NCBI RefSeq assembly: GCF_900198195.1
Contig: NZ_LT899436.1
Coordinates: 1,653,501-1,717,500 of the forward strand
Direction: 5' to 3'
Source of the DNA: Tenacibaculum jejuense
GTDB taxonomy: Bacteria > Bacteroidota > Bacteroidia > Flavobacteriales > Flavobacteriaceae
Length of the DNA: 64,000 bases
In this document: positions 3,292 through 29,501 of the stretch, piece by piece
Layout: the number at the start of each line of letters is the position of its first letter
Numbering within the stretch: the first letter of the stretch is position 1
Position numbers and translations under genes: made by a program
The notes under the pieces: generated by a model
Database searches by the model: none
What the model was told of the DNA's origin: nothing
The model's input: only the letters and a program-made list of their open reading frames with translations

Positions 3292-3446
3292 AAGTTGGGG
3301 ATTAATTATTTACACACTATTATGACACATTTTATCCCGAAAGTCACAATGTTTAACGAATTAGACTTTAAAATGTTTCATTTCTTACATCAAAATAAAG
3401 AAAAAAATCAGTTAAAAAGTGTTAAACATCGATAAACGGTTCGTTT

Positions 3447-10580: not shown

Positions 10581-12443
10581 ATGATTAGAAGTGTGAGTTT
10601 TCTTATCTTGTTTTTTTTAGGTATTTCTATTTATGGTCAAAATAAAGCAGAAGAATTACTTAAGAAACTAGATGAAAGTACTAATGTTAACGATCGAATT
10701 GCCTATTTAGATACGTTAACTAATCTTATGGTACGTAAGAATCATCCCAAGAAATTACAATACTTACTTGATTATGTTAATTTAACAAGTAAACAAGGAG
10801 AATATGATTTAGCAGCGAATAAATCTCGATTTCTTATACAAGAATACATTAATGAAGGAGATTTTAAGGCAGCGTTTAAAGAGATTGAAACTCAATTAAA
10901 AAATGTAGATAAGTTTAAAAAGAAAAGTTCTGAAGCTCATGTTTTACTTAAAAAGGGAGCTTTATACTATCATAAAGAACAGTTAGATAGTGCAGCAATA
11001 GATTATGATAAGTCTGGAGAACTTTTTTTAAAGAGTAATGACTCTATTTTTGCAGCAGATGCACTTTTTTTTGCTGGGCAGGTATATTTTGATAAGAATG
11101 ATTTTTTAAATAGTGTGCAAAGATTTGAAAAAGCTTACCAGCTTTATATCAAATTAGGTGACGCGAGTTATGCTAACTACACACTAAATGAATTATCAAG
11201 TTTATATGGAAAAAATGGATTTCATGATAAGGCTATTTACGAACGAAAAAGAATTTTATCAGGTGCTAAGAAAATGAATGATCCTACAGGTATTTTCTAT
11301 GCCTACTCACATTTATTTACATCGTATGCTAAGAAAAACGAATTAAATATTGCAAAAAAGTATTTAGATTCTATGACGAGTTCGTATGCTGATGTTAAAA
11401 ATGAAATGATGAAAAGAGGATTTAGCATGCATTTGGCAAAAATTAAAACTAAATATTATTTAAAAGCTCAAAAATTAGATAGTGTTTATAAATATCTAAA
11501 AGAATTTGATAGCAAATTGAAATCAAGTAAACGAAAAGATCAATATCATAAGAATTCCTTTTTATTGTATTCAGGCCAATATCATAGTGCCAAATTAGAA
11601 TATCCTGTTGCAGAAAAGTTTTATAAAAAGCTATTGAATAAGAATAATAAATTGGGTGACGAACAACTGCGAATGGAGGCAAACAAGCAACTTTCAGACG
11701 TGTTATCAGCTCAAAGAAAAATAGCAGAATCGTACAAATATTTAAAGGCTTATACTAAAGCTAAAGACTCTATAGAAAGAAGAATTACAACAAATACTTT
11801 CTTATATTATCAATCGCAGTTCGAAACACAAAGAAAGGATAGTGAAATCTTTAAAAATGAAACTGAAATTACGCTATTAGAAAAAGACAAAGAGATTAGT
11901 GAAGCTAAAAGAAGAATATTATGGTTTATTTTATTCTCTGTAATAGTACTTTCAGCGTTTATTTCTTATTTTATCTGGTATAAAGGTAAAATGAAACGAA
12001 AGGTATTGGCACAAAAAATAGCAGAAAATAAACAAGAACTTACTTCATATACCAATCAGTTATTAGAGAAAAGTAAGATACAAGAGTCTTTAACTCAAGA
12101 ATTAGAAAAGTTAAAAGAAGAAATTGGAAATCAAAAATCTATTGAGAAAATTAATGATTTAACTACCACAAAAATTTTAACTTCTGATGATTGGTATATT
12201 TTTAAAGAAAAATTCACAAAAGTGCATCCTACTTTTTTCATGCGACTAAAAGATAAAGGATATAACCTTACTAAGTCTGAAGAACGCTTGTTAGCCATGG
12301 AAAAGTTATATTTAGATACTAAACAAATTGCTACTATGTTAGCGATTTCCAATGATAGTGTTGTTAGAAGTAGGTCTCGTCTTCGTAAAAAAGTAAATGC
12401 GCCAAAAGGAAGTTCAATTTTAGAATATTTGGAGGCTTCTTAA
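10581..12443 (+). CDS. Membrane-tethered TPR regulator with C-terminal helix-turn-helix (type A)
   Basis: This 620-residue protein has a signal peptide (MIRSVSFLILFFLGISIYGQ), then an array of tetratricopeptide repeats (about residues 30-420). One membrane helix lies at about 443-468 (RRILWFILFSVIVLSAFISY), with a cytoplasmic coiled coil (470-530). A C-terminal helix-turn-helix covers about 560-615 (L-T-K-S-E-E-R-L-L-A-M, then DTKQIATMLAISNDSVVRSR and SRLRKKV). The layout implies a periplasmic TPR sensor linked to a cytoplasmic LuxR-like DNA-binding domain without kinase or receiver domains. Its N-terminal 420 residues align with the protein at 31357-33240, but the helix-turn-helix differs. 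It converges with the B-type regulator at 12463, 19 bases away. Confidence 0.78.
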   Translation: MIRSVSFLILFFLGISIYGQNKAEELLKKLDESTNVNDRIAYLDTLTNLMVRKNHPKKLQYLLDYVNLTSKQGEYDLAANKSRFLIQEYINEGDFKAAFKEIETQLKNVDKFKKKSSEAHVLLKKGALYYHKEQLDSAAIDYDKSGELFLKSNDSIFAADALFFAGQVYFDKNDFLNSVQRFEKAYQLYIKLGDASYANYTLNELSSLYGKNGFHDKAIYERKRILSGAKKMNDPTGIFYAYSHLFTSYAKKNELNIAKKYLDSMTSSYADVKNEMMKRGFSMHLAKIKTKYYLKAQKLDSVYKYLKEFDSKLKSSKRKDQYHKNSFLLYSGQYHSAKLEYPVAEKFYKKLLNKNNKLGDEQLRMEANKQLSDVLSAQRKIAESYKYLKAYTKAKDSIERRITTNTFLYYQSQFETQRKDSEIFKNETEITLLEKDKEISEAKRRILWFILFSVIVLSAFISYFIWYKGKMKRKVLAQKIAENKQELTSYTNQLLEKSKIQESLTQELEKLKEEIGNQKSIEKINDLTTTKILTSDDWYIFKEKFTKVHPTFFMRLKDKGYNLTKSEERLLAMEKLYLDTKQIATMLAISNDSVVRSRSRLRKKVNAPKGSSILEYLEAS

Positions 12444-12462: not shown

Positions 12463-14019
12463 TTATAATTTTAAGAGATAATTATTTAATGAATGCTCAC
12501 TAGTAAGATTTAGTTTCTTTTTTAATCTAAATCGAGTAGATTTTACAGCTTCTAAACTGGTATTTCTTAAAAGCGCAATTTCCGACCTAGAGAGTCCAAT
12601 TTTAATAAAAGAACAAATTTCAATATCAGTTTTTGTTAGTTTTTGATGCTTTGTTTTTAATCTTTTTAAATATTCGTTATTAAGAGTGTGTATTTGTTTC
12701 TTTAAAACATTTATATCTTCTTTCGCTACTTGTTGATTACTTTTTAAAGAATGAATTATCAACTGCAATGATTGTTGTAATTCTTCTTGAAGTGACTTAT
12801 CGTATTTTTCTAGATTTGTTTTTTCATGCTTTGGGCTAATACCATTTTTTTTCTTCATGTATTTATAAGCATAAATCACCATAGATAATAAAATCAGCAA
12901 TAGAATAATTAAAACGATGCTATATAGTCTGTTCTGTAATTTTTTATTTTGTGATTGTATTTGTAGTAATTTTCTTTCTTTAGCTTTAACAATACTATCT
13001 CTTAATTGTTTTTTTTCATAAGTATTTAAAATCTCTAATGTCTTTAACTCTCTTATTTTTCTAATATCATTTATTTTTCTGTTTATTGAGTTATATTTTT
13101 TGACGTCATCAAAAGCTAATTCATATTTTTTCATGGCTTTATATATTTTACTTCTAATTAGATAAGCATTATATAAATACTGTTTGGTATCTTCAGAAAT
13201 AGCCATTTCTATACTGTTATTTATATGAACTAAAGCTTTATCATACGCTTCAGTTTTAAGGTAAATATTAGCAATATTTGAAAGTGTATTAATGATAGAA
13301 CGTTTTTTATTAATTTGTTGGGTATACTTCAAATACTCCAAATATATATGTAATGCTTTGTCGTATTCTTTTTGCATAGAATATAGTGAAGCCTTATTAG
13401 AAATAGCCTGTTGTTTTCCTTCTTCATAATTACTTAATTCAAAATAATAAATTGCTTTATCTAGTATATAAAAAGCAGAATCTATTTGCTTTGAATTTTT
13501 ATAGCATGCAGACATCATACTATAGTTATTAGCAAGATTTTTGTATCTTTTATTGAGGAAGTTTATAGCAATAGCTTTTTTAAATAATTGAATTGATTTC
13601 TGATATTCTTTTCTTTTTCTATATATAAAAGCTATGTTGTGGTAAATAGTAGAAAGTTGAACTGTATCGTTTATTTTGATATAAATTTTCTCTGCGGCAT
13701 GATAATCTTTCAAAGCTCCTGTATAGTCAGTTTTTCTTCTTTTATAAATACCAGAATGACCGTATGTTTTAGCTCTTTGCAATCGAGTATCATAGTTTAC
13801 TTGATCTAGAATTTTATGGATTTCTTTACAGTAAACAATTACTTTATTATAGTCTCTTTTCTTTTGATAAGCACATAAATTTAACAAAGCTTCAACTCGT
13901 AACGAATCGGTTTGTTTTTTTTGTAAATCACTTTCTAATCTTATTAAAGTTGTATCTCTATTTTGTGCTTGTATGACAATGGAAATGAACAGAAAAACAT
14001 GAGTAACAAGTTTTTTCAT
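12463..14019 (-). CDS. Membrane-tethered TPR regulator with C-terminal helix-turn-helix (type B)
   Basis: This 518-residue protein has a signal peptide (MKKLVTHVFLFISIVIQAQ), TPR repeats (about 25-330), a membrane helix (about 362-390, LYSIVLIILLLILLSMVIYA), a coiled coil, and a C-terminal LuxR/GerE-like helix-turn-helix (about 455-510: LTKTDIEICSFIKIGLSRSE, then L-R-N-T-S-L-E-A-V-K-S-T-R-F-R-L-K-K-K-L). The N-terminal half matches the protein at 29688-31343 (both have a G-V/I-Y-K-R-R then D-Y-S/T-G-A-L-K-D-Y motif). It lies 114 bases downstream of the small gene at 14134 with a terminator between, so it is probably transcribed separately from the surface operon. Confidence 0.78.
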   Translation of the reverse strand: MKKLVTHVFLFISIVIQAQNRDTTLIRLESDLQKKQTDSLRVEALLNLCAYQKKRDYNKVIVYCKEIHKILDQVNYDTRLQRAKTYGHSGIYKRRKTDYTGALKDYHAAEKIYIKINDTVQLSTIYHNIAFIYRKRKEYQKSIQLFKKAIAINFLNKRYKNLANNYSMMSACYKNSKQIDSAFYILDKAIYYFELSNYEEGKQQAISNKASLYSMQKEYDKALHIYLEYLKYTQQINKKRSIINTLSNIANIYLKTEAYDKALVHINNSIEMAISEDTKQYLYNAYLIRSKIYKAMKKYELAFDDVKKYNSINRKINDIRKIRELKTLEILNTYEKKQLRDSIVKAKERKLLQIQSQNKKLQNRLYSIVLIILLLILLSMVIYAYKYMKKKNGISPKHEKTNLEKYDKSLQEELQQSLQLIIHSLKSNQQVAKEDINVLKKQIHTLNNEYLKRLKTKHQKLTKTDIEICSFIKIGLSRSEIALLRNTSLEAVKSTRFRLKKKLNLTSEHSLNNYLLKL

Positions 14020-14297: not shown

Positions 14298-16526
14298 TTA
14301 TTCTATTATTATTTTTTTACTTGAATTTGTTTGTTCTGATTGTAGCTTAACAATGTATACTCCAGGAGTAATAGCATTTAAATCAATCTTCGAAGAAGAA
14401 CTTGATGCTATTTGAGTACTAAATACTTCCTTACCAAGAATTGAGTATATTTTTACTTCTGAAGTTGAGGTGATTCCTGTAATTGTAATTTCTTTGTTAC
14501 CAGATTTAAAGATGTTGATGTTTTCAGAAACTAAACTCTCTTGTTCTGTACTTAATGTTTTAGCACTTGTGTGTAAATAAAATCTTCCAACTGTAGTAGC
14601 AGTTTCATCTATTTTTATTTTATGTGTAGTTTCATTATTAAGAATTACAAAGGTGTTATTTTGTTTATCTTCTAAATAAATTTCGGCAGTATCAGGTAAT
14701 TCAGTTGTATGAATAGAAAACTCAACTTCAGTATCTTTCTCAGCAACTAAACCAATAGGAATAATAATATCTTTAAGTTCACTAATTGGTAAAGATTGTA
14801 TTGTAAAATTAGTATTCGTGCTTTCATCGGCAAGTCGCGTGAAGATATCAAAACTAGCACCGCCAAAATTTCCAATATCATAGCCAGCATCTAATCCTTT
14901 TGTTGCTGTGTTTGTATATAATATTCGAGTTTTAACTTTTCTGTCATTTGTTTCAGCTAATAATTCGATTTCTACATTTTCGCTTCTATTTTGAAATCTC
15001 ATAGAAGGACCACTTGAAATATTAATTCCTCTCTGGTCTTTATTAAAATTTACTTCTGTTTCACCAGCTTTTGTTCTTATAAAGAAACCTTGCCCTGGTG
15101 CTAATTTACTTTCAGCATCAACTAAAGAAGTAGCTACATATTTATTTTGAGCAACATCCCATGTGTAAACAGCTACAAACGAAGGATCGAATTTATTAGA
15201 GTTATTAGCGATAAAGTTTTCACCAGAAAGATCATTAATTGGTAGGTAAGCAGTATAAGGATTTCCAATAGCATTCCACTCATTTTCAGTAACAGTTTCG
15301 GTTACATCGTTAGTTGCTATAGTTCCAGTAAAAGATACACTTCCGTTTGAAGCTCTAGATATGGCATAGCTTTTACCTAATTCAAAAGTTAATGAGTTTG
15401 TAGCTAAATCAGTAGTTGTGTAATACACCCATTTAGATCCATCTGTTTTACTGTCATCATAATATCCAATTGCATATCTATGAGGTGTTACAGTAGTATT
15501 TACACGAATATCATTTAAAGTATTTTCAGCAAATTCTTTAATACTTTGTCCGCTAACAGGAGCAGTTATAATGTTCCATTCATTAGCTACTAAACCATTT
15601 TGTTGAAAAGTAACTTGCCCAGAAGCACTTCCGTCTACGATAAAAACACTGCTATCGCTAGTATCTGCTGTAACTGTAATTGCACCATCATTATTTAAAT
15701 TTCCATTTACATTTAAAACACCATTTGAAATGGTTAAATCAGCTCCAGAATTAACAGTTAAATCATCAATTACATAACTTCCAGTATTTAAAATAGGATC
15801 GTTTGTAACATCTGGAATTATTACATTATTAGTAGCATTAGGAATTTCAGAAGTATTCCAATTTGAAGTTACTCCCCAAAATGCACTAGAAGCTCCTGTC
15901 CAATTTATATCTGTAGGAAGTGAAGCTCCTGTTGAATCATAACTATCTCCTGTAAGTTGAATTCCTGGCTCAGACGTACAATTAGCCGTTCCGAAAGCAA
16001 CTGCTGTTGTTGGTCCACAGGCTGTATAAAATTGATCTAAAAATACGCCACCAGTTTCAAAAGTAACATTAGGATCTTTACTTACATCTGTATATTTAAT
16101 TTTAATACTGTATAAATGTTGTGGTGTATCGGTAACAACAGGCATTCCTATAGTTCCACTACTTGCCAATTGTTGAAAAGAAGTAGATACTCTTGATGTT
16201 GTATTATCGTTCACTATAAAAGAATGGTAGGCAAAAACGGTCCCAGAAAAAAAGCTAGTTGCTAAAATAGAACCATCTGGTTGTAGCATCTCAAAATTGG
16301 TATTGGTGTCAACATTTTCGCCAAATGCTTCTGTATTATAATTGAAATAAATTTGACCAGACCCTACGATAAAATCTGTATCTGAAGCGATATAAATATC
16401 AGCTTCATAAAAATCATTAGTTCCGTCGTTTGTATTCCTTGCATTAACAAAAGAAAAACTTATGTTTTGTGAAAATAGTTGACTAGTAAAAGCAACTAGA
16501 ACAATAAATAGTAAATTTCTCATCAT
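14298..16526 (-). CDS. T9SS type A sorted protein with N-terminal cohesin-like domain
   Basis: This 742-residue protein has a signal peptide (MMRNLLFIVLVAFTSQLFSQ). Residues ~21-185 form a beta-sandwich whose pattern (G-S-G-Q-I-Y-F-N-Y-N-T-E-A-F-G, later HLYSIKIKYTDVSKDPNVTF) resembles cohesin domains. A W-T-G-x-x-S-x-x-W-G-x-x-x-N-W-N motif (about 207-224) and beta-helix-like strands follow. The last ~80 residues are a T9SS type A sorting domain ending N-S-S-K-K-I-I-I-E. Such proteins are exported through the T9SS and attached to the surface. Two proteins with dockerin-like tails are encoded at 16800 (same operon) and 20139, suggesting a docking partner. The cohesin call is by eye and uncertain; export and sorting are firm. 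Confidence 0.85.
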   Translation of the reverse strand: MMRNLLFIVLVAFTSQLFSQNISFSFVNARNTNDGTNDFYEADIYIASDTDFIVGSGQIYFNYNTEAFGENVDTNTNFEMLQPDGSILATSFFSGTVFAYHSFIVNDNTTSRVSTSFQQLASSGTIGMPVVTDTPQHLYSIKIKYTDVSKDPNVTFETGGVFLDQFYTACGPTTAVAFGTANCTSEPGIQLTGDSYDSTGASLPTDINWTGASSAFWGVTSNWNTSEIPNATNNVIIPDVTNDPILNTGSYVIDDLTVNSGADLTISNGVLNVNGNLNNDGAITVTADTSDSSVFIVDGSASGQVTFQQNGLVANEWNIITAPVSGQSIKEFAENTLNDIRVNTTVTPHRYAIGYYDDSKTDGSKWVYYTTTDLATNSLTFELGKSYAISRASNGSVSFTGTIATNDVTETVTENEWNAIGNPYTAYLPINDLSGENFIANNSNKFDPSFVAVYTWDVAQNKYVATSLVDAESKLAPGQGFFIRTKAGETEVNFNKDQRGINISSGPSMRFQNRSENVEIELLAETNDRKVKTRILYTNTATKGLDAGYDIGNFGGASFDIFTRLADESTNTNFTIQSLPISELKDIIIPIGLVAEKDTEVEFSIHTTELPDTAEIYLEDKQNNTFVILNNETTHKIKIDETATTVGRFYLHTSAKTLSTEQESLVSENINIFKSGNKEITITGITSTSEVKIYSILGKEVFSTQIASSSSSKIDLNAITPGVYIVKLQSEQTNSSKKIIIE

Positions 16527-16624
16527 GAATAATTGTTGTTTTTTGTATCTTTTTTATTGTAAAACCTTCTAGATTTTTTATGTTTAGTGAGGTTTTAAAA
16601 GAGATGTATATATTTTTTAAAAGA

Positions 16625-16789
16625 CTATACTCTTTGAACATTGATAATTCTCATCGACATTCCATTGAACGATTTTTCTATCTTAATTTTTGATAGCCAG
16701 AATAAACTTCCACGATAGATTATCGGTAAATAGGCAAATTTTTTAATCTCTATACGAACTTTAAATCTTTTATTTTTAGTTAGTTTCAT
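16625..16789 (-). CDS. Small basic protein, 54 residues (paralogue of 33560-33730)
   Basis: The ATG at 16789 is 10 bases after the stop of the gene at 16800, and the stop is TAG at 16625. The product has a basic head and a middle reading LPIIYRGSLFWLSKIKIEKS followed by F-N-G-M-S-M-R-I-I-N-V-Q-R-V. It aligns without gaps over about 47 residues with the 56-residue protein at 33560: K-R-(F/Y)-K-V-R, L-P-I-(I/V)-Y-(R/K)-G, W-L-S-(K/R)-(I/V)-K-(I/L)-E, F-N-G and a hydrophobic end are shared. No signal peptide or convincing membrane helix is present. The paralogy and the tight operon position argue that it is a real gene. Function unknown. Confidence 0.75.
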   Translation of the reverse strand: MKLTKNKRFKVRIEIKKFAYLPIIYRGSLFWLSKIKIEKSFNGMSMRIINVQRV

Positions 16790-16799
16790 GTAGTTTTAG

Positions 16800-17666
16800 T
16801 TAAAATTGTTCTCCTTTTCCAATGTTAGGATTCAAAAGATTGTTGATATCAGAATTTTGTACCTGACCATTCATATCTAAATCGGCTTTATTGTATGTTG
16901 AAATTCCTAATAATTGAATCACTGAATTGGTATCTATATTTTGAATTTGTCCGTTTTCATCAAAATCACCAGCGATCATCGCAAATATTCCGTTCCCCAT
17001 ATTTAAAACAGAGTTAGTTCCGCCAAATACGGCTGTAGTTGTATCACTAAGATTTATTGTAGTAGTAGAAGTTGTATTTAAAGTAACTGGATTTGTACTT
17101 ATAATTCCTAAATGATTTCTGTGGTTAATTCCTACAAAATAACTGTCTGAAGACAATGCTATTTGTACGGGAGAAATCCCGTTTGTATCAACAATATCTC
17201 CATCAGCTTGTAATAATGCAGATTGACTTGCAAGTACTATGGTTTTATCATTTTTGTCTCGTAAAGTGATCCAAATCCAATCGATAATTGCGTCGTTACC
17301 GGTATTATTAAATACTGAATTTTCACAGGTTAAGCCATCTGAATACGGACTTGTAGTTGGTAACAAACTATTACTTCGTAAACTATCGTCCATAGTTGTA
17401 GTTCCTGAAGTAGCCAAGGGTCCCTGTAAAAAAGCTATTGGAGAAAGTCTAATTTTAAGTATGATCGCTTCTTGTTGAAACCCTTGGTTTAATATTGCTG
17501 TACCATTAGAATTAGTTGTAACAACTAATTCTCCTACAGTAAAGTTTATGCTTCCGTTAGTATTACTTAATGTTTTTCCTGTTGATCCGATTACGGTACG
17601 TTCTAACGTTTGTGAAAACATTGTCACCGAAAAAAGTAAACCGATTATGAATATAAATTGTTTCAT
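16800..17666 (-). CDS. Exported protein with dockerin-like C-terminal module
   Basis: I use the ATG at 17666, which begins the signal peptide MKQFIFIIGLLFSVTMFSQ; longer starts would overlap the upstream gene. The 288-residue protein begins with a short domain (G-S-I-N-F-T-V-G-E-L-V-V, residues 20-65). The rest is a ~210-residue module shared with the end of the giant protein at 20139. Shared landmarks are S-P-Y-S-D, I-D-W-(I/V)-W-(I/V), DGDIV, HRNHL and M-G-N-G-I-F-A-M-I. Two dockerin-like calcium-loop repeats (GDFDENGQIQNIDTN and DLDMNGQVQNSDIN) and the tail NPNIGKGEQF complete it. There is no standard T9SS sorting domain. It lies 7 bases after the gene at 17674. Confidence 0.78.
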   Translation of the reverse strand: MKQFIFIIGLLFSVTMFSQTLERTVIGSTGKTLSNTNGSINFTVGELVVTTNSNGTAILNQGFQQEAIILKIRLSPIAFLQGPLATSGTTTMDDSLRSNSLLPTTSPYSDGLTCENSVFNNTGNDAIIDWIWITLRDKNDKTIVLASQSALLQADGDIVDTNGISPVQIALSSDSYFVGINHRNHLGIISTNPVTLNTTSTTTINLSDTTTAVFGGTNSVLNMGNGIFAMIAGDFDENGQIQNIDTNSVIQLLGISTYNKADLDMNGQVQNSDINNLLNPNIGKGEQF

Positions 17667-17673
17667 ACGCTTA

Positions 17674-19422
17674 TTATCTTTTTCCAATAATATGTAAAAC
17701 AGTTGCCGCATCAGTTTTGTTATCTCCACCAGAACTTCTTACCTGATACTCCACTTTACCTTGAGCCAATGAAGTAATCATAGCAGCTCTAGTTACAGAA
17801 GTAGATCCAATACAAGTGATCGTTACAGCAGGTAAATTTGAAAAGTGATTCGAGTAATTTACAGTATAGGTGTTTCCACTTCTAGAGGCTGTTATACCAG
17901 AAGAATTAGTAACATTAGTATTTAATGAACCATCTGCGTTTACGATTATAGAAATAATCTCTACATTATTAGATGCACCAGCTGCTCTAAGATCATCACC
18001 ATCTTGATCTATAACTACATTTCCATCAGTAGCAATGTTTTCTTCTACTTTTAATTCTCCGTTAACTTGTAAGTAATCATTATCAAATTCACCGTAAATT
18101 AAATTTCTAATATGTAATTGATTAGAGAATGAACCTCCAGCTCCTGCTGCTGTTCCGATTAATACATTAGAGTCTCCGTTTAAATTATATCCAGCAAAGT
18201 ATCCTATTACAACATTACTATCTCCTGATTGTGCGCCCTCTGCAGCTTGATATCCAATAATTACATTTCTTCTTTCTAGGTTTGAAAGATTACTTGTATC
18301 ATCATAAGAACCAAAAATTTGGTTTTCAAAAGAAGATGTTGTAAGAGCTCCATCAAGTTCAAAATTACCAGTTGATTTTATAGATCCAGAAACATTTAAT
18401 AAACCATCAGTAATTTCTACTTGAGAAGTTCCATTTGTTACAAAATGAATTTCATCAGCTTTTCCAAAATTATTATCTCCTCCAACAGCAATCATTGTTG
18501 GTGAACTGTCTCGTTCTCCTGGAGCTTGTATAGCCGATGTGTAAATCCATGGTGTAGTCATGTAACCTTCATCTTTTTGGTTAGAAGCATTCTGAGTTGT
18601 ACTTTGAGAACCAACAGCAATGTTTCCAATCACAGCATTATCGACAACATCTAAACTTGTCTGAGGATTAGATTCTCCAATACCAACACTACCATCAGCT
18701 TTAATAGCAATTCCTTCATCGTCTCCATCATTAGAAATCCAATTAGAATTAATTTGAATATTTCCTCCTAAAGAAATTTTAGCTGATGTAATTACATTAC
18801 CATTTGTATCAAACTGAATTCCGCTATCATTAGTTCCGTCTCCATTAATCCAGTGTGTATCTAAATTGATATTACTTCCTAAGAATAATTTGTGTGATGT
18901 AGTTACTCTTCCTCCAGAATTCACTAGTAAACCTTCATCGTCACCATCATTAGAAATCCATTTTCCATCTGTTTTTATGTTTTCAGTTAATGTGTGGTTT
19001 CCTAAATTATCTCCATTTTCTACATACTTAGCTTGTAATGCATAAGGAACGCTTAATAATTGTGTAGTTCCCATACTTACATAAGTTGTACCTCCAGCAA
19101 TATCAATACTAACTTCTAAAAAATGACTATTAGATGCCCAATCTATTGTAGAAAAAGTATCTACTGTAGCGCCTTGCCCAACAATTAAGCTAAATACTCC
19201 ATACCCATTTGTTGTTGTCGTATGTGTTTCTGTATAAATTACAGTCCCGTCTGCTGTTGCTTGGCGTAATTTTAACTCAACACCTACATTAGCATTTGCT
19301 AATATTTCTCCAGATGCGTTTCTAACTACAGATTGATAATTGAAACCTTCTGGAGTTTGTGAATATGCGATTAAAGAGAAAAGATATAAGAATAAAAAGA
19401 TGCTTAAATTTTTTGTGTACAT
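17674..19422 (-). CDS. Exported fibre-like protein (tail-fibre/trimeric type)
   Basis: I chose the ATG at 19422, directly before the signal peptide MYTKNLSIFLFLYLFSLIAY; an upstream in-frame ATG at 19461 would add 13 polar residues. The 582-residue product begins with the usual Bacteroidetes Q-T-P-E-G-F-N-Y-Q-S-V-V-R-N domain ending S-V-P-Y-A-L-Q-A-K. About three ~40-residue repeats follow, with W-I-S/N-x-D-G-D/T-D/N-(D/E)-G and S-x-K-I/L-x-L-G-x-N-I-x-x. Next come a V-G-I-G-E-S-N-P-Q-T-S-L-D-V motif and a hexapeptide-like stretch (N-V-V-I-G-Y). Such proteins resemble phage tail fibres and often trimerise. It is the first gene of the operon running to 14134. Confidence 0.75.
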   Translation of the reverse strand: MYTKNLSIFLFLYLFSLIAYSQTPEGFNYQSVVRNASGEILANANVGVELKLRQATADGTVIYTETHTTTTNGYGVFSLIVGQGATVDTFSTIDWASNSHFLEVSIDIAGGTTYVSMGTTQLLSVPYALQAKYVENGDNLGNHTLTENIKTDGKWISNDGDDEGLLVNSGGRVTTSHKLFLGSNINLDTHWINGDGTNDSGIQFDTNGNVITSAKISLGGNIQINSNWISNDGDDEGIAIKADGSVGIGESNPQTSLDVVDNAVIGNIAVGSQSTTQNASNQKDEGYMTTPWIYTSAIQAPGERDSSPTMIAVGGDNNFGKADEIHFVTNGTSQVEITDGLLNVSGSIKSTGNFELDGALTTSSFENQIFGSYDDTSNLSNLERRNVIIGYQAAEGAQSGDSNVVIGYFAGYNLNGDSNVLIGTAAGAGGSFSNQLHIRNLIYGEFDNDYLQVNGELKVEENIATDGNVVIDQDGDDLRAAGASNNVEIISIIVNADGSLNTNVTNSSGITASRSGNTYTVNYSNHFSNLPAVTITCIGSTSVTRAAMITSLAQGKVEYQVRSSGGDNKTDAATVLHIIGKR

Positions 19423-19625
19423 CGAATTGAAATTGTCATTTGGATCTTTTATGTATTTCATGTCTTAGTTATATTATTAGTAGCTTTTAAATTTTTATAA
19501 ATAAACAGGTGTTATTCTTTGTCTATTTTTTAATGTTTCTCAGTTCTATTTTTTTAAATTATTAATATGTTTTCTTAAACTTTATGAATTTTACTTTTTA
19601 CTAGATGTAGTAGTAAAACCATGGT

Positions 19626-20138: not shown

Positions 20139-23100
20139 TTAAAATTGTTCACCTTTACCAATATTAGGATTCAATAAGTTATTAATGTCTACATTTTGTA
20201 CTTGTCCGTTCATATCTAAGTCTGCTTTATTGTAGCCAGAAACTCCTAATAATTGAATAACAGCATTGGTGTCAATATTCTGAATTTGTCCATTTTCATC
20301 AAAATCACCAGAAATCATAGCGAAAATTCCATTACCCATATCGATAACGGCATTGGTTCCTCCAGAAATAATATTACTACTTGATGTTAAATCAACAGCA
20401 GTTACAGCAGTTGTAGAAAAGCTCACTACAGATGAGGTTTTAATACTCAAGTGATTTCTGTGTTTAATTACCACGAAGTAATCACCAGGAGTTGCATCGA
20501 ATAGGAGAGGAGTACTACGGTCGTCAGTTGTTTCTACAATATCACCATCACGTTGTAATATTCCAGACTTTCCAGCGATTACAGTATCAGGGTTAGTTGA
20601 ATCTCTTAATTCAACCCAAACCCAGTCAACCATAGAATTTACTCCTGCATCATCTAGTTTTATAGCATCAGAAATAGTAGCAGCATCCGAATAAGGAGAA
20701 GTTGATCCGTAAGTTCCTCCGGCAATTCTTAAATCGTCACGCATTAAACTTTCTTCCCCAGAATTCGGATTTATATAAGCTCCTTGTAAGTAAGCATTTA
20801 TAGCTAATTGAATATAACCACAGTTAGTGTCGCTAAAACTAGCAGTATTATCAATATCAGACCATCTCGTAGTACTGTAATCAGCATCATCTACTAGTAT
20901 ACATTCTAGAGCAGCGTTGTTTTCAGCATTAAAAGATAGGACTAAATTATTTTTACCATTTTTTAGATTCAAATAAGACAGACTATTGTAGGAAACATTT
21001 ATAATTTCAATGCTGGTCGCAGTAGATAAATCTAAATTAGTAATACTGTTTGAATATGCTGATAATGTGAATAAACGAACAGCTCCGGTTACATCTAAAC
21101 TTGTTAGGTTGTTTTCACCAACATATAATTCGAATATACTAGCAATACTATTTGATAGATCTAAACTTGTAAGATTGTTGTTTGATAATCTTACTTCTTT
21201 TAAGTCGGTTGTGTTAATAGATGTTACTGAATTTAAGCCACAATTGGTTGCACTTAATTCTTGTAATATTGTGTTGTTTGCTAAATCAAGGCTTGTTAAA
21301 TTTGGATTATTACTCAGATTTAAACCTAATAGTTTGGTGTTTTTTGATACATCTATTGTCGTTAAATCATTTGAAGAAGCTCTTAGTTCATAAAGCAATG
21401 GGTTATTACTAACATCTACGCTTGTTAGACTATTATTACTTATGTGTATCGTTTCAAGTAAAGTATTTTTAGAAATGTCAATATTGGTCATTCCTGAATT
21501 ATATGAACAACGTAAATCAGTTAGAGCGGTGTTTTTTGATACATCTATTGAACTTAAAGACATAGCATCAAGTCTTACAAATTCCAATAAAACTAAATTT
21601 GAAATATCAATACTTCCTGCACTATTATTTCCTACATCTAAGGATGTTAAACTGGTAAAATCTTGAATTCCTGTGAAATCTGTGATAGATTGTTTGTTTA
21701 CAGTTAAAGAAGTAATACCTTCAATTAATTCCGTAGGAACTTGTCCGTCACCAGAGATATCATCGTAACCTAAAGCTTCTAATCGAGCTTCAAATTTGGC
21801 ATCTGGAATTGCAGTATAATTACAATAATTTGTATCTCTAAAGTTAGTTGTGTCGTCAATATTTGTCCAATTCGTTGTACTGTAATTTGCATCATCAACT
21901 AACACACAACTTAAAAGCGGATTACCCGTACTGTAAAATATCAACATATTAGTATTGTTGGCGTTCTTAAGATTTAAATAACTTAACTCATTATTTGATA
22001 AAATCAATTCTGTTAATGCTGTATTTTTTGATAAATCTACACTTGTTAGATTGTTATTAGACATTCTTAACTCATGCAACAATGTATTATTACTTAGATC
22101 GATATTTGTAAGACTATTATTACCAACATGCGCAGTTTCTAATAACGTATTATTTGAAACATCAATACTAGTTATTCCTGAATTAAATGAACAACGTAAA
22201 TCGACAAGTGCTGTATTTTTAGAAAGATCTATGGATGTTAACGACATCGCATCTAGTCTAACAAATTCTAGCAAAACTAAATTTGTAATATCAATACTTC
22301 CAGCGTTATTATTTCCTACATCTAAACTAGTTAATCCAACAAAATCTTCTATTCCTGTGAAATCTGTAATAGATAAATTCTTTACATCTAACGTAGTAAT
22401 TCCTTCAATTAATATTGTTGGTACCTGACCGTCACCAGAAATATCATCATAACCTAAATTTTCTAAAGCCGCTTCAAAATTTGCATCAGGAATGGCAGTA
22501 TAGCGACAATAAGTATCTGTAAAACTAGCAGTTCCATCAATATCTGTCCAATTTGTTGTACTATACGTAGCATTGTCAACAACAATACAAGTTAAGTTAG
22601 GGTTATTTTCAGCTCTAAACGTAGTAACATTTGTGTTGTTTCCGTTTTTCACATTTAAGTAACTTAAATTCGTTTCATGTGCATATAAGTTTTTCAAAAC
22701 TATTTGCTTACTTAAATCTAAAGAGGTTATACCTGTATCATTTACGTGTAATGTTTCAATATTCGGATTATTACTTAAATTCAATTCAGTAATATTTGTA
22801 TTATCAACACGCAATACTCGTAATTCAGGATTATTAGAGAAATCAACAGTACTAATTTGTGTACCATAACATTCTAAAGTTTCTAAATCAGGATGAACAC
22901 TAAAATCTAAAGCAGCAATATTAGTAGCATACGCTTTAAATTCTACCAGTTTAGTATTATTACTGATATCTAAACTGGTTAAACCTCCATTACCATTTAC
23001 CAATAACTTTCGTAATGAAGTATTATTTGTAAGATCTAATGAAGTTAAATTACTTCCAGCTAAATTTAGAATCTCTAAATCAGTGTTATTTGATAAATCA

Positions 23101-26100
23101 ATTGAAGTTAAAGAGTTACCATCTGAAGTTAATGTTTTTAGTAGTGTATTTTGAGTTACATTTAAAGAAGTAAGATTATTTACTCTACAGTTCAATGATG
23201 TTAATGCTACAAAATCTTCAATCCCTGTTAAATCGCTGATTCCTTTATTAGGCAGTGCTAAACTTGTTACGCCTTCAATTAAATATGTTGGAACTTGTCC
23301 GTCACCAGAAATATCATCATAACCTAAAGCTTCCAATTCAGCTTCAAAATTAGCATCTGGAATTTGTGTATAACGACAACCTGTATTATTAAAATATGCT
23401 GTGTCATCTATTCCTAACCAATTTGTAGTACTGTAAGCTGAATCGTCAACAGAAATACAGTAAAGATCTGAGTTATTTTGCGCCACAAAGTTCGTTACAT
23501 TCGTATTGTTTCCATTTTTTACATTTAAAGAGATTAAGTTATTGTCATTAACAGTAATTGAAACTAACGCTGTTTGGTTTGAAAAATCTAATTCGGTAAT
23601 TGAATTGTTCTGACACCAAATTGATGTTAGTAACGTATTTGTTGAAACATCTAAAGTATTCAAACTATTATCTCCGCAACGTAAATCTAATAAAGCCGTG
23701 TTTAAAGAAACATCTAAATTGGTAAGATTATTATTGTTACACTCTAAATAGGTTAATGCTGTATTTTTTGAAACATCTAATGTAGATAAATCATTAAAAG
23801 AACAAACTAATATATCTAAATTCGGACTGTCACTTACGTTTAACGAAGCAATAGGAGTGAACTTGGTAATTACTGAAGTTAAATTTGTATTGTTTGATAA
23901 ATCTAAACTAGTAAATGAATTACTAGCACAATTCAATGTTTTTAAAGCAGTAAAATCTTCAATTCCTGTAATATCAGTAATAGATTTTGCAACAATAGTT
24001 AAATCTTCAACAACTTCAATTAAAGCAGTTGGTACTTGTCCGTCACCAGAAATATCATCGTAACCTAAAGCTTCTAAAGCTGCTTCAAAGTTTGCATCTG
24101 GAATTGTAGTGTAATTACAATAGTTTTCTCTAAAGTTTGTGGTTGGATAAATATCAGTCCAGTTTGTTGTACTGTAGGCAACGTTATCTACAAAAATGCA
24201 AGATAAATTTGAGTTTCCTTCAGCATTGAATAAAGTAATGTTTGTATTTGTACCGTTTCTAACATCTAAATAATTTAGATTATTTTGATCTAAACGAATA
24301 AAAATTAATTCTGGATTTTTAGAAAGATCTAACGAAGTAATTTCGTTATTGAAAATAGAAATCTTTTTTAATTTAGGATTATTGGTAAAATCGAAATCAG
24401 TAAAGTCATTTCCAAAACCTACTAATTCTTCAAAATACTGTAAGTTTTCTAAATGTAACACATCCATATTATTATCATCACACTTTATATATTCTAATAA
24501 AGTGTTATTTCTCAAATCTAAATTTTGAATTGTGTTATCATTACAGGTCAAACGTGTTAATGCAGAGAAGTCTTCAATACCAGTTAAATCTGAAATTCCT
24601 TTATTTCCGATGCTTAAAACATCTACAACTTTTATTAAATCTGTAGGTACTTGTCCGTCTCCAGAAATATCATCATAGCCTAAAGCAGCTAGCTCAGCTT
24701 CAAATTTGGCATCAGGAATTGCCGTATAATCACAATACAAACTAAAATTAGCAGTATTATCAATATTAGTCCAATTTGTAGTACTCCAAGTAGGATTATC
24801 AACTTTAATACAAGTTAAATTATCGTTGTTTCTTACATCAAAATTGATGATGTTGGTATTATTCCCATTTTTAATATTGATATTTTCTAAAACACCTGTT
24901 TGTCCATAGAAATCTGTTAAAGCAACTTGATTTGTTAAATCTATAGTAGTAATATCAGAACCGTTTACTCTAACTTCTGTAAGTTTTGTATTGGTGGTTA
25001 AATCAATAGTTGAAATATCTGTATAATCAATACGTAGTTGTGTTAGTTCTGTATTTAAAGAAATATCTAATGAAGTTAATTTAGTTCTATACAAGATTAA
25101 CTTTCCTAAAACTAAGTTGTTACTTACATCAAGTGTTGCAATATCAGTTTGAAATAATTCTAAAAAAGTAAGCTGTGTTAAATTACTTACATCAATAGAG
25201 GTAATATCTGTAACAGGACATTCTAATCTTGTTAAAGAGGTGTTGTTAGAAACATCTAAAGATGTTAAAGGATTTGCACCAATATCTAAGGTAGTTAACT
25301 TTAAATTCTTTGAAAGATCTATACTTGTTAAATCATTTTCGCTTATACCTAAAGTTTCTAAGTCAGTATTATTAGTTAAGTTTATGGAAGTTAAGCTGTT
25401 GTTTTTAAGATTAAGTGATTTTAAAGCGATAAAATCCTCAATCCCTGTTAAATCGGAAATAGTTTTACTTCTTAAATCTAAATCTGTTACAGTTTCTATG
25501 TTTCTAGTTGGAACTTGTCCATCTCCATTAACATCATCATAACCTAAAGCTTCTAATTCAGCTTCAAAATTTGCATCTGGAATAGTTGTGTAACGACATC
25601 CCAAATCGTTAAAACTAGCTGTGTTGTCTATGTTAGTCCAGTTGTTCGTACTCCAAGTTGCATCATCTACGGTAATACAGATTAAAGATGGATTTCCTGT
25701 AGCAACAAAATTACCATTAGACATATTGGTATTGTTTCCGTTTTTAACATTTAAGTACGTTAGGTTATTATTTTCACATTCTAGTCGAACTAATGCCGGA
25801 TTGTTCGAAACATCTAAAGTTGTAAAACTATTATCAGCAATTCTAAGCTGTGTTAAAGCTGATAAATGAGATACATCAATTGAGTTGAAATTCACTCGTT
25901 CTATTACAATTACTTCTAACAGAGAATTATTCGAAACGTCTAATCCATTCAAAGGAGTATCTTGAAAAAATAGATTTTTAACATTTGTGTTATTACTAAT
26001 ATCAATGCTCGTTAAGTTTGCACAAGCTCTTAGGTTTATAGTTTCTAAAAGAGGATTGTTAGCAACGTTTATAGTAGTAAATAAATTATTTCTAAGATTT

Positions 26101-29100
26101 ATAAAAGTTAAATTAGGATTTTGACTTAAATCAATGGTTGATAATTGATTGTATCTTCCTTCTATACTTTCTAATTTTGATATTGTGCCTAAATTTAAAG
26201 TAGCAATAGTATTATTATCAAAATTTAAGTTTTGAAGATTACTATTTGAACTTAGATCTAAACTTGTTAATACATTTGTGTCTAAATTCAAGTCCGTCAA
26301 TGCTACAAAATCTTCAATTCCAGTTAAATCAGCAATGTTTTGATTACTCACATCTAACGTTGTGACAACTTCAATCAATTCAGTAGGTACTTGTCCGTCT
26401 CCAGAAATATCATCGTAACCCAAACTATTTAATGCAGCTTCAAAATTAGCGTCTGGAATAGTGGTATAATCGCAATAAGTAGCACTAAAACTTGTTGTTG
26501 CTTCAATATCTGTCCAGTTAGATGTACTATATGCTACATCATCAACTAAAACACAAGGTACAGGAGTACCAACTGTTTCAAAAGCTGAAATATTTGTGTT
26601 AGTTCCATTTTGAATGTTTAAACCTGTAAGTGTTGTAATATCTTCAGCATATAGATACTTTAACGCTGTGTTTTTAGATAAATCTAACTCAACTAAACTT
26701 GTTTTGTCAATTTCTAAACCAGTTAAATTAACATTTGCACTTAAATCTAATGATGTAATATCAGAACCTTCTAAATCTAAAGAAGTTAAGTTAGTATTAT
26801 TACTTGTATTTAATGTGGTAAGACTACAATCTGTACACATAAATTGAACTAATGCTGTGTTGTTAGAAATGTCTAGTGAAGTTCCAGAATATTGAATTCT
26901 AAAGTCTTCTAACGCTAAGTTTTCACTAACATCTATGGAAGAGAAATTGTTATTTCCTTGTCTGATCCAAAGTACTTTTAAAGCAGTATTATTAGTTAAG
27001 TCAATGCTTGTTAAATTATTTTGGTTTGCTTTTAATTCTTCAAGAGCAGTAAAATCTTCAATACCGGTTAAATCCGTTACTCCTTTGCTACTAATGTTTA
27101 ATACGGTAAGGGATTCAATTAAAAATGTTGGTACTTGTCCATCACCAGAAATATTATCATAACCCTGTGATTCTAATACTGCTTCAAAAGTAGCATCTGG
27201 AATAGCTGTATAGTTACAGTTTGTCTCACTAAACAGTGTAGCAGAGTCAATATCTGTCCAGTTTGTTGTACTGTAGGTTATATCATCTACAAGTACACAG
27301 AATACAGGAGTACCTATAATATCAAACGCGTTAATATTTGTATTGTTTCCGTTTTGGATATTTAACGTTGTTAGCGTTGTAATATCTTGTGCATACAAAT
27401 ATTTAAATGAAGTATTCTTTGATAAATCTAATGCTACTAAACTTGTATTTTCTAGTTCTAGAATTTCTAAGTTAGTATTTGTGCTTAGATCAAGTGCAGT
27501 AACTGGCGTATCCTCTAGGTCTAAATGTCGAAGGTTTGGATTGCCACTAGTATCTAAAATTGTAAATGTACAATCTACACAGGCGAAACGGTCTAAGGCA
27601 GTAAGATTGGAAATATCGATAGCACTAGATAAAGATCGAATTTGAAGATCTTCTAATACTGGATTATTACTTACGTCAATAGAGCCAAGAGAAGAACTAC
27701 TTGTCATTTGAAACAATTTTAAAGCAGTGTTATTAGATAAGTCAACCGTAGTAATATTATTTCCGTTTGCTTTTAACTCTTCCAATGCAGTAAAATCTTC
27801 TATACCTGTAAGATCTGTAATATTTTGACCTGCTAGTTGTAGTTCAGTAACGGTTTCAATTAAAGAAGTAGGTACTTGTCCATCACCAGAAATATCGTCG
27901 TATCCTAAAGCTTCCAGTCGAGCTTCAAAATTTGCATCTGGTATAGCTGTATAAGTCAATTGATTGATGGTTACTGTTCCTAAATCTAACTCACAAGAAC
28001 CATTATTAAATCTAGCTTTTAAATCATATGTTCCTACACCTAAATTGGTGATATCAGCTGTTCCTAAATCATCGTTAAATGTGTAGGGATAGGTTACTCC
28101 GCCATCTACACTAAATTGAATTTCTGATTTAGTAGCTTCATCAGAAAAATTAAGTGTTATTGTTGCATTATTTTGACCAATAGAAGCACCAGTAGAATCT
28201 GTAATTGAAGCCGTAGGTGTTACAGTACTTGCTAAAGGAACAAAGTGAATTGCTCCTGAATTTGAAGGTGAATCATCTTCGTTTTGACCTACAAGTAAAT
28301 ATGGATAAGAAACTGCTACTGCTCTATTTGAGAATTCATCCCATCCATTACCAGATGTTAATTTTGTTAATTGAGACCAATTATTGGTGCCATCATCTTT
28401 GAAAATATATACTGCGTCTCCGTTAGTTTTTCCGTCTCCCCAAGTTCCCACATATAAAAATCCATTTTCTATGGCTACATCTGTTCCAAGACGTTGATCA
28501 GCAAAACTATCTTTATCTGTATTTTGGATCATGACTCTATTTGAGTCTAAATAATCTCCATTTATGTCTGCTTTATAAACATATACTCTTCCTTCGTTAG
28601 CTGTAGAGGTAGAACTGGTTTCAAATTTCATAGCACCAATTGCTAAATAATCACCTTCTACATCAATACTCCATCCAAAAGTTTCATTAGTTAATGTCCC
28701 TCGTAAACGATGTGTACGTAACCAAGTTCCATCATTAGCTTGATCCCATACTTGAACAGATCCTGCTGAAGCATTCCCTACAGAAGAATAATCATAAGGA
28801 CCACTTACATAGGCACGACCGTTTTTAATTAGCACATCATGACCAAAACGAGCACCAGAATAATTAGATTGTACTTGAGGTTCTAGTTTGGTTTCTGTAT
28901 ATGTAAATGTTCCTGTTCCATCATTTTCATATAAATAGGCACAACCTCCCACAGAGCCATTTCTAGCGCCAATTAACACCATATTTCCTTCTATAGAAGC
29001 TGATACTCCAAAACGATCATCAGAACTTCCATCACTAGGTTCGAAAATAGCTACTTCAGTCCAAGTACTTGAACCGTCGTATTCAAATAAATAAGCGGCT

Positions 29101-29501
29101 CCAGTATCTACTGCAGAGGAGTTTGTTTGAGCACTAGCTCCAACAACTAAGTAATTTCCCTGTAAAGCGATACTTGATCCAAAATTATCACCTGCAAAAC
29201 TATCACTAGCTGTTAATATCGTTTGCTGTGACCAATTTCCTGAACCATCATTAGTATATACATATACTTTCCCTGCTGCTTCACCATTACTTCGAGATAC
29301 GGTAACAGCAATATTACCATCTATAACAACTCGCTCTCCAAATCTATGGTTTGAAGCAGCATCACTTGCTTTTATTTTTGTACCACCAACTGAGGTTGTG
29401 GTAAATGTCCCTGTTAATTTAGTTTCGTCTAGTGTACAAGAGTTTTGACTATACGCTAAAAACGAAAATATGGTAAGTACTAAAAGTATTTTTTTCTTCA
29501 T
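20139..29501 (-). CDS. Giant exported beta-propeller / leucine-rich-repeat protein with dockerin-like tail
   Basis: This 3120-residue protein has a signal peptide (MKKKILLVLTIFSFLAYSQ). Residues ~25-425 are FG-GAP-like propeller repeats (blades with F-G-x-S/D-V-x-I-x-x-x-x-x-V-G and V-Y-x-Y). A SprB-like beta-sandwich covers about 430-510. Nine modules of 200-330 residues follow (about 515-2895). Each starts Y-T-x-I-P-D-A-x-F-E-A and carries DDISGDGQVPT, then leucine-rich repeats of the form L-T-S-L-D-(L/V)-S-x-N-T-x-L. Each closes with G-N-N-T-N, a C-I-x-V-D-(D/N) and T-N-W-T-(D/N)-I-D. The final ~220 residues match the tail of the 288-residue protein at 16800, ending NPNIGKGEQF. It is probably a surface adhesin. 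It lies downstream of two TPR regulators, with its own promoter element at 29533. Confidence 0.87.
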   Translation of the reverse strand: MKKKILLVLTIFSFLAYSQNSCTLDETKLTGTFTTTSVGGTKIKASDAASNHRFGERVVIDGNIAVTVSRSNGEAAGKVYVYTNDGSGNWSQQTILTASDSFAGDNFGSSIALQGNYLVVGASAQTNSSAVDTGAAYLFEYDGSSTWTEVAIFEPSDGSSDDRFGVSASIEGNMVLIGARNGSVGGCAYLYENDGTGTFTYTETKLEPQVQSNYSGARFGHDVLIKNGRAYVSGPYDYSSVGNASAGSVQVWDQANDGTWLRTHRLRGTLTNETFGWSIDVEGDYLAIGAMKFETSSTSTANEGRVYVYKADINGDYLDSNRVMIQNTDKDSFADQRLGTDVAIENGFLYVGTWGDGKTNGDAVYIFKDDGTNNWSQLTKLTSGNGWDEFSNRAVAVSYPYLLVGQNEDDSPSNSGAIHFVPLASTVTPTASITDSTGASIGQNNATITLNFSDEATKSEIQFSVDGGVTYPYTFNDDLGTADITNLGVGTYDLKARFNNGSCELDLGTVTINQLTYTAIPDANFEARLEALGYDDISGDGQVPTSLIETVTELQLAGQNITDLTGIEDFTALEELKANGNNITTVDLSNNTALKLFQMTSSSSLGSIDVSNNPVLEDLQIRSLSSAIDISNLTALDRFACVDCTFTILDTSGNPNLRHLDLEDTPVTALDLSTNTNLEILELENTSLVALDLSKNTSFKYLYAQDITTLTTLNIQNGNNTNINAFDIIGTPVFCVLVDDITYSTTNWTDIDSATLFSETNCNYTAIPDATFEAVLESQGYDNISGDGQVPTFLIESLTVLNISSKGVTDLTGIEDFTALEELKANQNNLTSIDLTNNTALKVLWIRQGNNNFSSIDVSENLALEDFRIQYSGTSLDISNNTALVQFMCTDCSLTTLNTSNNTNLTSLDLEGSDITSLDLSANVNLTGLEIDKTSLVELDLSKNTALKYLYAEDITTLTGLNIQNGTNTNISAFETVGTPVPCVLVDDVAYSTSNWTDIEATTSFSATYCDYTTIPDANFEAALNSLGYDDISGDGQVPTELIEVVTTLDVSNQNIADLTGIEDFVALTDLNLDTNVLTSLDLSSNSNLQNLNFDNNTIATLNLGTISKLESIEGRYNQLSTIDLSQNPNLTFINLRNNLFTTINVANNPLLETINLRACANLTSIDISNNTNVKNLFFQDTPLNGLDVSNNSLLEVIVIERVNFNSIDVSHLSALTQLRIADNSFTTLDVSNNPALVRLECENNNLTYLNVKNGNNTNMSNGNFVATGNPSLICITVDDATWSTNNWTNIDNTASFNDLGCRYTTIPDANFEAELEALGYDDVNGDGQVPTRNIETVTDLDLRSKTISDLTGIEDFIALKSLNLKNNSLTSINLTNNTDLETLGISENDLTSIDLSKNLKLTTLDIGANPLTSLDVSNNTSLTRLECPVTDITSIDVSNLTQLTFLELFQTDIATLDVSNNLVLGKLILYRTKLTSLDISLNTELTQLRIDYTDISTIDLTTNTKLTEVRVNGSDITTIDLTNQVALTDFYGQTGVLENINIKNGNNTNIINFDVRNNDNLTCIKVDNPTWSTTNWTNIDNTANFSLYCDYTAIPDAKFEAELAALGYDDISGDGQVPTDLIKVVDVLSIGNKGISDLTGIEDFSALTRLTCNDNTIQNLDLRNNTLLEYIKCDDNNMDVLHLENLQYFEELVGFGNDFTDFDFTNNPKLKKISIFNNEITSLDLSKNPELIFIRLDQNNLNYLDVRNGTNTNITLFNAEGNSNLSCIFVDNVAYSTTNWTDIYPTTNFRENYCNYTTIPDANFEAALEALGYDDISGDGQVPTALIEVVEDLTIVAKSITDITGIEDFTALKTLNCASNSFTSLDLSNNTNLTSVITKFTPIASLNVSDSPNLDILVCSFNDLSTLDVSKNTALTYLECNNNNLTNLDVSLNTALLDLRCGDNSLNTLDVSTNTLLTSIWCQNNSITELDFSNQTALVSITVNDNNLISLNVKNGNNTNVTNFVAQNNSDLYCISVDDSAYSTTNWLGIDDTAYFNNTGCRYTQIPDANFEAELEALGYDDISGDGQVPTYLIEGVTSLALPNKGISDLTGIEDFVALTSLNCRVNNLTSLNVTQNTLLKTLTSDGNSLTSIDLSNNTDLEILNLAGSNLTSLDLTNNTSLRKLLVNGNGGLTSLDISNNTKLVEFKAYATNIAALDFSVHPDLETLECYGTQISTVDFSNNPELRVLRVDNTNITELNLSNNPNIETLHVNDTGITSLDLSKQIVLKNLYAHETNLSYLNVKNGNNTNVTTFRAENNPNLTCIVVDNATYSTTNWTDIDGTASFTDTYCRYTAIPDANFEAALENLGYDDISGDGQVPTILIEGITTLDVKNLSITDFTGIEDFVGLTSLDVGNNNAGSIDITNLVLLEFVRLDAMSLTSIDLSKNTALVDLRCSFNSGITSIDVSNNTLLETAHVGNNSLTNIDLSNNTLLHELRMSNNNLTSVDLSKNTALTELILSNNELSYLNLKNANNTNMLIFYSTGNPLLSCVLVDDANYSTTNWTNIDDTTNFRDTNYCNYTAIPDAKFEARLEALGYDDISGDGQVPTELIEGITSLTVNKQSITDFTGIQDFTSLTSLDVGNNSAGSIDISNLVLLEFVRLDAMSLSSIDVSKNTALTDLRCSYNSGMTNIDISKNTLLETIHISNNSLTSVDVSNNPLLYELRASSNDLTTIDVSKNTKLLGLNLSNNPNLTSLDLANNTILQELSATNCGLNSVTSINTTDLKEVRLSNNNLTSLDLSNSIASIFELYVGENNLTSLDVTGAVRLFTLSAYSNSITNLDLSTATSIEIINVSYNSLSYLNLKNGKNNLVLSFNAENNAALECILVDDADYSTTRWSDIDNTASFSDTNCGYIQLAINAYLQGAYINPNSGEESLMRDDLRIAGGTYGSTSPYSDAATISDAIKLDDAGVNSMVDWVWVELRDSTNPDTVIAGKSGILQRDGDIVETTDDRSTPLLFDATPGDYFVVIKHRNHLSIKTSSVVSFSTTAVTAVDLTSSSNIISGGTNAVIDMGNGIFAMISGDFDENGQIQNIDTNAVIQLLGVSGYNKADLDMNGQVQNVDINNLLNPNIGKGEQF
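20820..27960 (-). repeat. Nine tandem ~0.6-1 kb coding repeats (LRR modules)
   Basis: The start of each module (the codons for IPDA-x-FEA through GDGQVPT) recurs near 27945, 27205, 26450, 25590, 24720, 24110, 23370, 22500 and 21810. Modules 8 and 9 share long nearly identical blocks: ITDFTGI-(E/Q)-DF, then SLDVGNN followed by AGSIDI-(T/S)-NLVLLEFVRLD. This suggests recent duplication. Module length varies through the number of inner 20-23-residue leucine-rich repeats. Confidence 0.85.

Follow-up and report, generated by a model that had tools for sequence, protein, structure and literature searches.

A T9SS-sorted protein with a predicted type II-like cohesin as a probable surface anchor for X-dockerin proteins in Bacteroidota

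The 64 000-nucleotide stretch of DNA analysed here (the window), part of a one-contig 4.6-Mb genome whose closest named protein relatives are from Tenacibaculum, encodes a T9SS-sorted protein with a type II-like cohesin that would hold X-dockerin-bearing client proteins at the cell surface by a non-covalent bond. The probability of this reading, in which the two proteins would bind each other in a calcium-dependent manner at the surface, is put at about 80 %. Read along the minus strand, the genes follow in the order 3120-aa protein, 595-aa protein, 288-aa protein and 742-aa protein, and an earlier sequence-only reading had placed them correctly. The features are as follows.

14298..16526, minus strand, 742-aa putative anchor protein with a signal-peptide-like start, cohesin module, middle region and T9SS type A sorting domain (start judged by eye)
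15912..16472, minus strand, predicted cohesin module, residues 19-205 of the 742-aa protein (AlphaFold2 and Foldseek)
14301..14489, minus strand, T9SS type A sorting domain, residues 680-742 of the 742-aa protein (TIGR04183, PF18962)
16800..17666, minus strand, 288-aa X-dockerin protein with a signal-peptide-like start (judged by eye), sorting domain not found
16803..17459, minus strand, predicted X-module and dockerin module, residues 70-288 of the 288-aa protein (fold by way of a homologue, 52 % identical)
16932..16967, minus strand, predicted calcium-binding F-hand loop 1, residues 234-245 (ligand positions 1, 3, 5 and 12 conserved, 105 modules)
16848..16883, minus strand, predicted calcium-binding F-hand loop 2, residues 262-273 (ligand positions conserved, 105 modules)
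20139..29501, minus strand, 3120-aa X-dockerin protein with FG-GAP and leucine-rich repeats, sorting domain not found
20142..20813, minus strand, X-dockerin module ending the 3120-aa protein (55 % identity to residues 72-288 of the 288-aa protein)
17674..19461, minus strand, 595-aa fibre-like protein between both X-dockerin genes (sub-threshold NF053851 match)
10581-12443, 12463-14019, 29688-31343, 31357-33240 and 37639-39273, five TPR proteins flanking the locus

The N-terminal domain of the 742-aa protein had been called cohesin-like over residues 21-185. An AlphaFold2 model of the slightly wider span 19-205 (pLDDT 93.8, pTM 0.89) agrees, with a predicted cohesin beta-sandwich fold. Foldseek returned cohesin entries throughout ranks 1-27 for this model and, after re-alignment, all 50 of the matches listed were cohesin entries. 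A sequence search of solved structures found a cohesin neither with the single protein nor with a profile, and the curated Cohesin model was absent among the Pfam matches listed for 15 relatives (E up to 10). The model points to a type II-like cohesin, found once in the genome, that would bind a dockerin. The T9SS sorting domain proposed for the same protein was recovered at its C-terminus, where TIGR04183 (38.7 bits, cut-off 23) and PF18962 (36.9 bits, cut-off 27) both exceed their curated cut-offs. SprA and PorU are likewise above cut-off in the genome; with this machinery present, the 742-aa protein classes as a T9SS type A substrate.

The two dockerin-like loops described at the ends of the 288-aa and 3120-aa proteins are in frame, reading DFDENGQIQNID (loop 1) and DLDMNGQVQNSD (loop 2) in the 288-aa protein. 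Q-N-T/S-D is present in both loops alike, a near repeat, and known dockerins also have a near repeat of their two loops. The 3120-aa protein ends in the same module (~217 residues), and these two proteins hold the only copies in the genome at E≤0.001. Likeness to PF00404 is weak by sequence (E=0.097, 13.3 bits against a cut-off of 22.9), and of 17 modules scanned 13 gave weak matches; a dockerin was absent from the sequence search of solved structures. In a set of 105 distinct modules the calcium ligands are conserved by position: position 1 is D in 102 (loop 1) and 105 (loop 2), position 12 is D in 103 for either loop, and D or N occupies positions 3 and 5 in 99 and 103 modules for loop 1, compared with 104 and 105 for loop 2. 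A chance origin of the loops was rejected on this conservation and, with both folds predicted as well, the dockerin likeness is more than chance. Two F-hand loops with conserved ligands, as in type II X-dockerins, are thus present, and modelling of the homologue predicts an X-module fold joined to the dockerin. The client tail is predicted to be an X-dockerin dyad, beyond the dockerin alone that had been proposed.

Profile scans gave no T9SS sorting domain match in the 288-aa or 3120-aa protein, as the sequence-only reading had held. Its suggestion that the layout does not serve cellulose also stands, since no enzyme family was above cut-off in these two clients, in which repeats were found; the leucine-rich repeat region of the 3120-aa protein scored 606 bits against NF033187 (cut-off 1700). 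The intervening 595-aa protein was without a Pfam match at E up to 1 and without a sorting domain or dockerin.

The homologue that is 52 % identical to the window module occurs inside a natural X-dockerin–cohesin fusion, so that one natural chain is predicted to combine the X-dockerin fold of the client module with the cohesin fold of the partner. The X-dockerin part of the model matches the dyads 4wi0_B, 3kcp_A, 4fl4_C, 5m0y_B, 4u3s_B and 2b59_B. Structure prediction and fold search, the check proposed with the original claim, recovered both the cohesin and the dockerin folds, the tail by way of this homologue, so that the unrelated folds named as a refuting outcome did not appear. The whole-chain pTM of the fusion was 0.79, compared with 0.50-0.56 by arithmetic for two independently placed domains; judged by pTM alone, this suggests contact between cohesin and X-dockerin in the fused chain, and a fusion could tether two domains without mutual binding. 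Two of the five fusion models had lower pLDDT (83.1 and 82.5). X-dockerin and cohesin share an ORF in seven loci; there the X-dockerin lies inside the chain, which continues to a T9SS-type tail.

Two loci held further arrangements. A 2622-aa ORF at L088:6321-14186 (minus strand) has four cohesin modules, three of which score equally, DADGDG-type repeats as spacers and a T9SS-type tail, forming a multi-cohesin scaffold that adjoins a fused X-dockerin–cohesin ORF. The front of an X-dockerin ORF at L043:7328-9907 resembles, by eye, a second and more classical cohesin-type sequence.

Gene neighbourhoods were compared in 78 loci from a cohesin-profile scan of named genomes (best 80 of 83 relatives), which are not fully independent because some overlap or share one genome. 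By title, these loci were mostly from Flavobacteriaceae, with five from Saprospiraceae, two from Bacteroidia and two from Chlorobiota. In 69 of the 78 an X-dockerin lay no more than 1.34 kb upstream of the cohesin, on the same strand, and in one it lay 3.1 kb away, while none was on the opposite strand; no upstream X-dockerin was found in the other eight, two of which are less than 0.5 kb from a contig end. Sorting signals were divided in the same way as in the window. Of 87 cohesin ORF ends, 85 match TIGR04183 (E up to 0.01). Unfused X-dockerin ORFs, a few of which are fragments, end 0-42 residues past the module in all 100 scored cases and so leave no room for a sorting domain, and PF18962 was found in two of 33 upstream ORFs (a set that includes two fused ORFs). 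By a simple rule, 79 of 89 X-dockerin ORFs have a signal-peptide-like start and three have a lipobox. The 33 upstream client ORFs carry leucine-rich, FG-GAP, fibronectin III, laminin-G-like and peptidase (M60, M4, S8) domains, and no glycoside hydrolase was seen in them among the matches listed (25 of 32 families). PF12256, a family that takes its name from a Tc-type protein region, is also matched by one of the 33 (E 2.3e-10), with no function implied.

Co-occurrence was examined in 397 genomes of the family, with up to seven X-dockerin and up to eight cohesin candidates scored per genome, so that copy numbers per genome are lower limits. A cohesin was detected in 16 genomes and an X-dockerin profile match in 42. 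The match was full-length, dockerin end included, in 14 genomes, all of which have a cohesin, and stopped short in 28, none of which has one (Fisher test, 5e-24 over all 397 genomes and 2e-11 within the 42). In four of the 28 the tails were inspected, and their calcium-loop regions were longer. A full X-dockerin was lacking in two cohesin genomes, G070, with none nearby, and G337, where the cohesin is at a contig edge. Nineteen of the 30 cohesin matches in this set have an X-dockerin within 1 kb upstream; of the remaining 11, four are tandem copies within a single ORF and some lie at contig edges. In a second set of 198 genomes across the phylum, the X-dockerin profile was found in 27 and the window-type cohesin in two, both from the genus of the window.

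These distributions bear on a reading without any pairing, in which calcium binding by the loops serves only the stability of a C-terminal beta domain, the cohesin-like sandwich is an ordinary beta module and adjacency reflects operon ancestry. Sequence profiles are indeed under threshold for both modules, beta-sandwiches are common, and a few beta proteins with no relation to either module, such as an integrin and ClfB, also stand in the structure lists for the fusion model. However, the top structural matches are cohesins and X-dockerins, each other's partners, and the cohesin is missing from every one of the 28 genomes in which the X-module match falls short of the dockerin end, which leaves this reading very improbable.

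The evidence on copy number favours an anchor that serves several clients. Genome G320 has at least five full X-dockerin matches, one partial match and one cohesin, which suggests a shared anchor; as the window pairs two clients with one cohesin, sharing is likely there too. For the surface scaffold of the sequence-only reading this means that the anchor layout is supported by gene order, fusions, co-occurrence and sorting tails, whereas a multi-cohesin scaffold is not, since one cohesin and two X-dockerin proteins in the window indicate an anchor. Divergence of X-dockerins and cohesins among within-genome paralogues was weakly matched (rho 0.38, reached by 286 of 5000 shuffles), and strict one-to-one co-evolution of paired modules is unsupported.

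A different T9SS-tailed protein, in most cases encoded by a frame of 260-320 aa, comes after X-dockerin genes of a second kind, which have longer loop regions (class 2; for example L094:7565-8341, directly after an X-dockerin gene). This partner was found in 24 of the 397 genomes (E≤0.001), with a same-strand X-dockerin within 1 kb upstream in 38 of 46 matches and one downstream or opposite within 1 kb in none of the 46. Twenty-three of the 24 genomes have an X-dockerin match that stops short, counting G096, which has both kinds, and the 24th, G060, is a weak match. In P0235 the class 2 domain is fused ahead of a long-loop X-dockerin, and a T9SS tail was not seen. Among 20 more distant X-dockerin loci from 17 genomes, ten have a T9SS-type-tailed protein of ~370-440 aa immediately downstream (class 3) and ten do not, the tail being scored with a profile built for this analysis. 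The class 3 neighbours (L096, L098, L099, L101, L102 at 2582-3697, L104, L105, L108, L109 and L115) combine a front domain that varies among them with a middle region of PLPV type. Profile comparison detected no homology of class 2 to the window cohesin (probability 0.1 % and 0.5 %). For class 3, a 43-column match was obtained with four hand-picked sequences of the ten (P 3.7e-4, probability 36 %), compared with 2.5 % with all ten and 0.2 % with another three. Apart from this weak match, sequence comparison detected no homology of either class to the cohesin.

The distribution of partners also weighs on a reading in which the X-dockerin acts as an outer-membrane sorting signal of a kind not yet recognised, and the cohesin protein, an independent surface protein, merely shares the operon. 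The extreme C-terminal position of the module, the usual site of T9SS signals, and its profile matches in 27 of the 198 phylum genomes would fit this reading. It is nevertheless unlikely: the module is internal and followed by a T9SS-type tail in the seven fusion loci, its predicted fold is that of an X-dockerin, and partner type follows module type across genomes.

In the mechanism proposed for the window, the cohesin of the 742-aa protein would reach the surface on its T9SS type A tail, while the 288-aa and 3120-aa clients, which carry no recognised T9SS signal, would enter the periplasm by Sec. The calcium-stabilised X-module–dockerin dyad of a client would bind the cohesin without a covalent bond, and the T9SS tail of the partner would thus display unsorted cargo outside, adhesion-like repeats here and lectin-like and peptidase domains in relatives. 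As client domains are diverse, the X-dockerin tail may be a general adaptor. Client and anchor may pair in the periplasm and exit jointly via the T9SS translocon, a more speculative step with roughly even odds, attractive because no exit signal was seen on the clients. Alternatively, the pair binds and the clients exit otherwise, docking from outside on the exposed anchor as in a classical cellulosome. Known cohesin–dockerin systems attach in this way (attachment is described in passages of PMC5141474), but inspection of the clients revealed no other exit signal (T9SS tails absent, few lipoboxes) and client genes usually adjoin the anchor gene; outside docking is a serious candidate at a little under even odds. 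Joint exit would extend further if Bacteroidota have a two-part secretion tag, in which an X-dockerin protein lacking a T9SS signal binds a dedicated cohesin-like carrier in the periplasm and passes the T9SS translocon by means of the signal of that carrier, with varied dockerin tails paired to varied carrier families across the phylum. This extension is tentative and rather doubtful; if true, many surface proteins at present listed without an export signal would be T9SS clients by proxy.

Non-cellulosomal cohesins, reportedly treated together with dockerins in an early survey, include those of Archaeoglobus (2xdh) and Clostridium perfringens (2jh2, 2vo8 and 2w1n). Like the module predicted here, they have the fold without belonging to a cellulosome; the present cohesin differs in that a neighbouring gene encodes a likely partner and in that a T9SS substrate carries it. 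T9SS type A substrates (TIGR04183/PF18962) have a C-terminal sorting domain as the anchor does, whereas the clients lack one and apparently depend on that of their partner. The repeat region of the 3120-aa client is similar, below cut-off, to that of internalin-J-like surface proteins (NF033187). Internalin J is cell-wall anchored; the 3120-aa client instead ends in an X-dockerin. The clostridial type II cohesin and X-dockerin (PDB 2b59, 5m0y, 4u3s, 4wi0 and 3kcp) are alike in the predicted cohesin fold and in the X-module beside a two-loop dockerin, at identities of 10-15 % for X-dockerin matches and 9-15 % for the first 27 cohesin matches. In clostridial cellulosome attachment the cohesin protein has the anchoring role, according to passages of PMC5141474, that is proposed here. 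In contrast to those systems, the single cohesin of the window comes from a member of the Bacteroidota and shares its chain with a T9SS sorting domain, and its clients bear leucine-rich and FG-GAP repeats, with no cellulase-bearing scaffoldin. The label of cellulosome was rejected, as no carbohydrate-active enzyme clients were found in the window or, among the matches listed, in the 33 ORFs of relatives.

Passages of PMC5831590 describe its genome, like other Bacteroidetes genomes, as without cohesins and dockerins, and parts of PMC6247017 report two cellulolytic species without dockerin and scaffoldin proteins. According to excerpts of PMC10266427, PF00404 matches occur in a few cockroach-gut Bacteroidota and a cohesin in a Firmicute only, and a section of the review PMC9251779 states that the T9SS moves folded proteins. 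No description of a cohesin–dockerin pair with the T9SS was found in the titles, opening parts of abstracts and passages covered in the open-access literature. If the anchor reading is true, Bacteroidota cohesin–dockerin pairs would have been overlooked because sequence models do not reach them, and a known cellulosome connector would have a different job, holding large adhesion-like proteins in a phylum said to be without it. It would also offer new binding pairs, a testable exit route for large surface proteins without a recognised signal and a way to find partners from neighbouring genes. As the same type of pair occurs with adhesion-like proteins, it would bear on the origin of cellulosome anchoring.

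Two minor observations concern the surroundings of the pair. A 54-codon ORF (window 16625-16789, minus strand) lies between the X-dockerin and cohesin genes, with look-alikes at the equivalent place in nine of 12 related loci checked (e.g. L010, L011, L012 and L016). Three of the five flanking TPR proteins have weak or clear LuxR-type helix-turn-helix matches.
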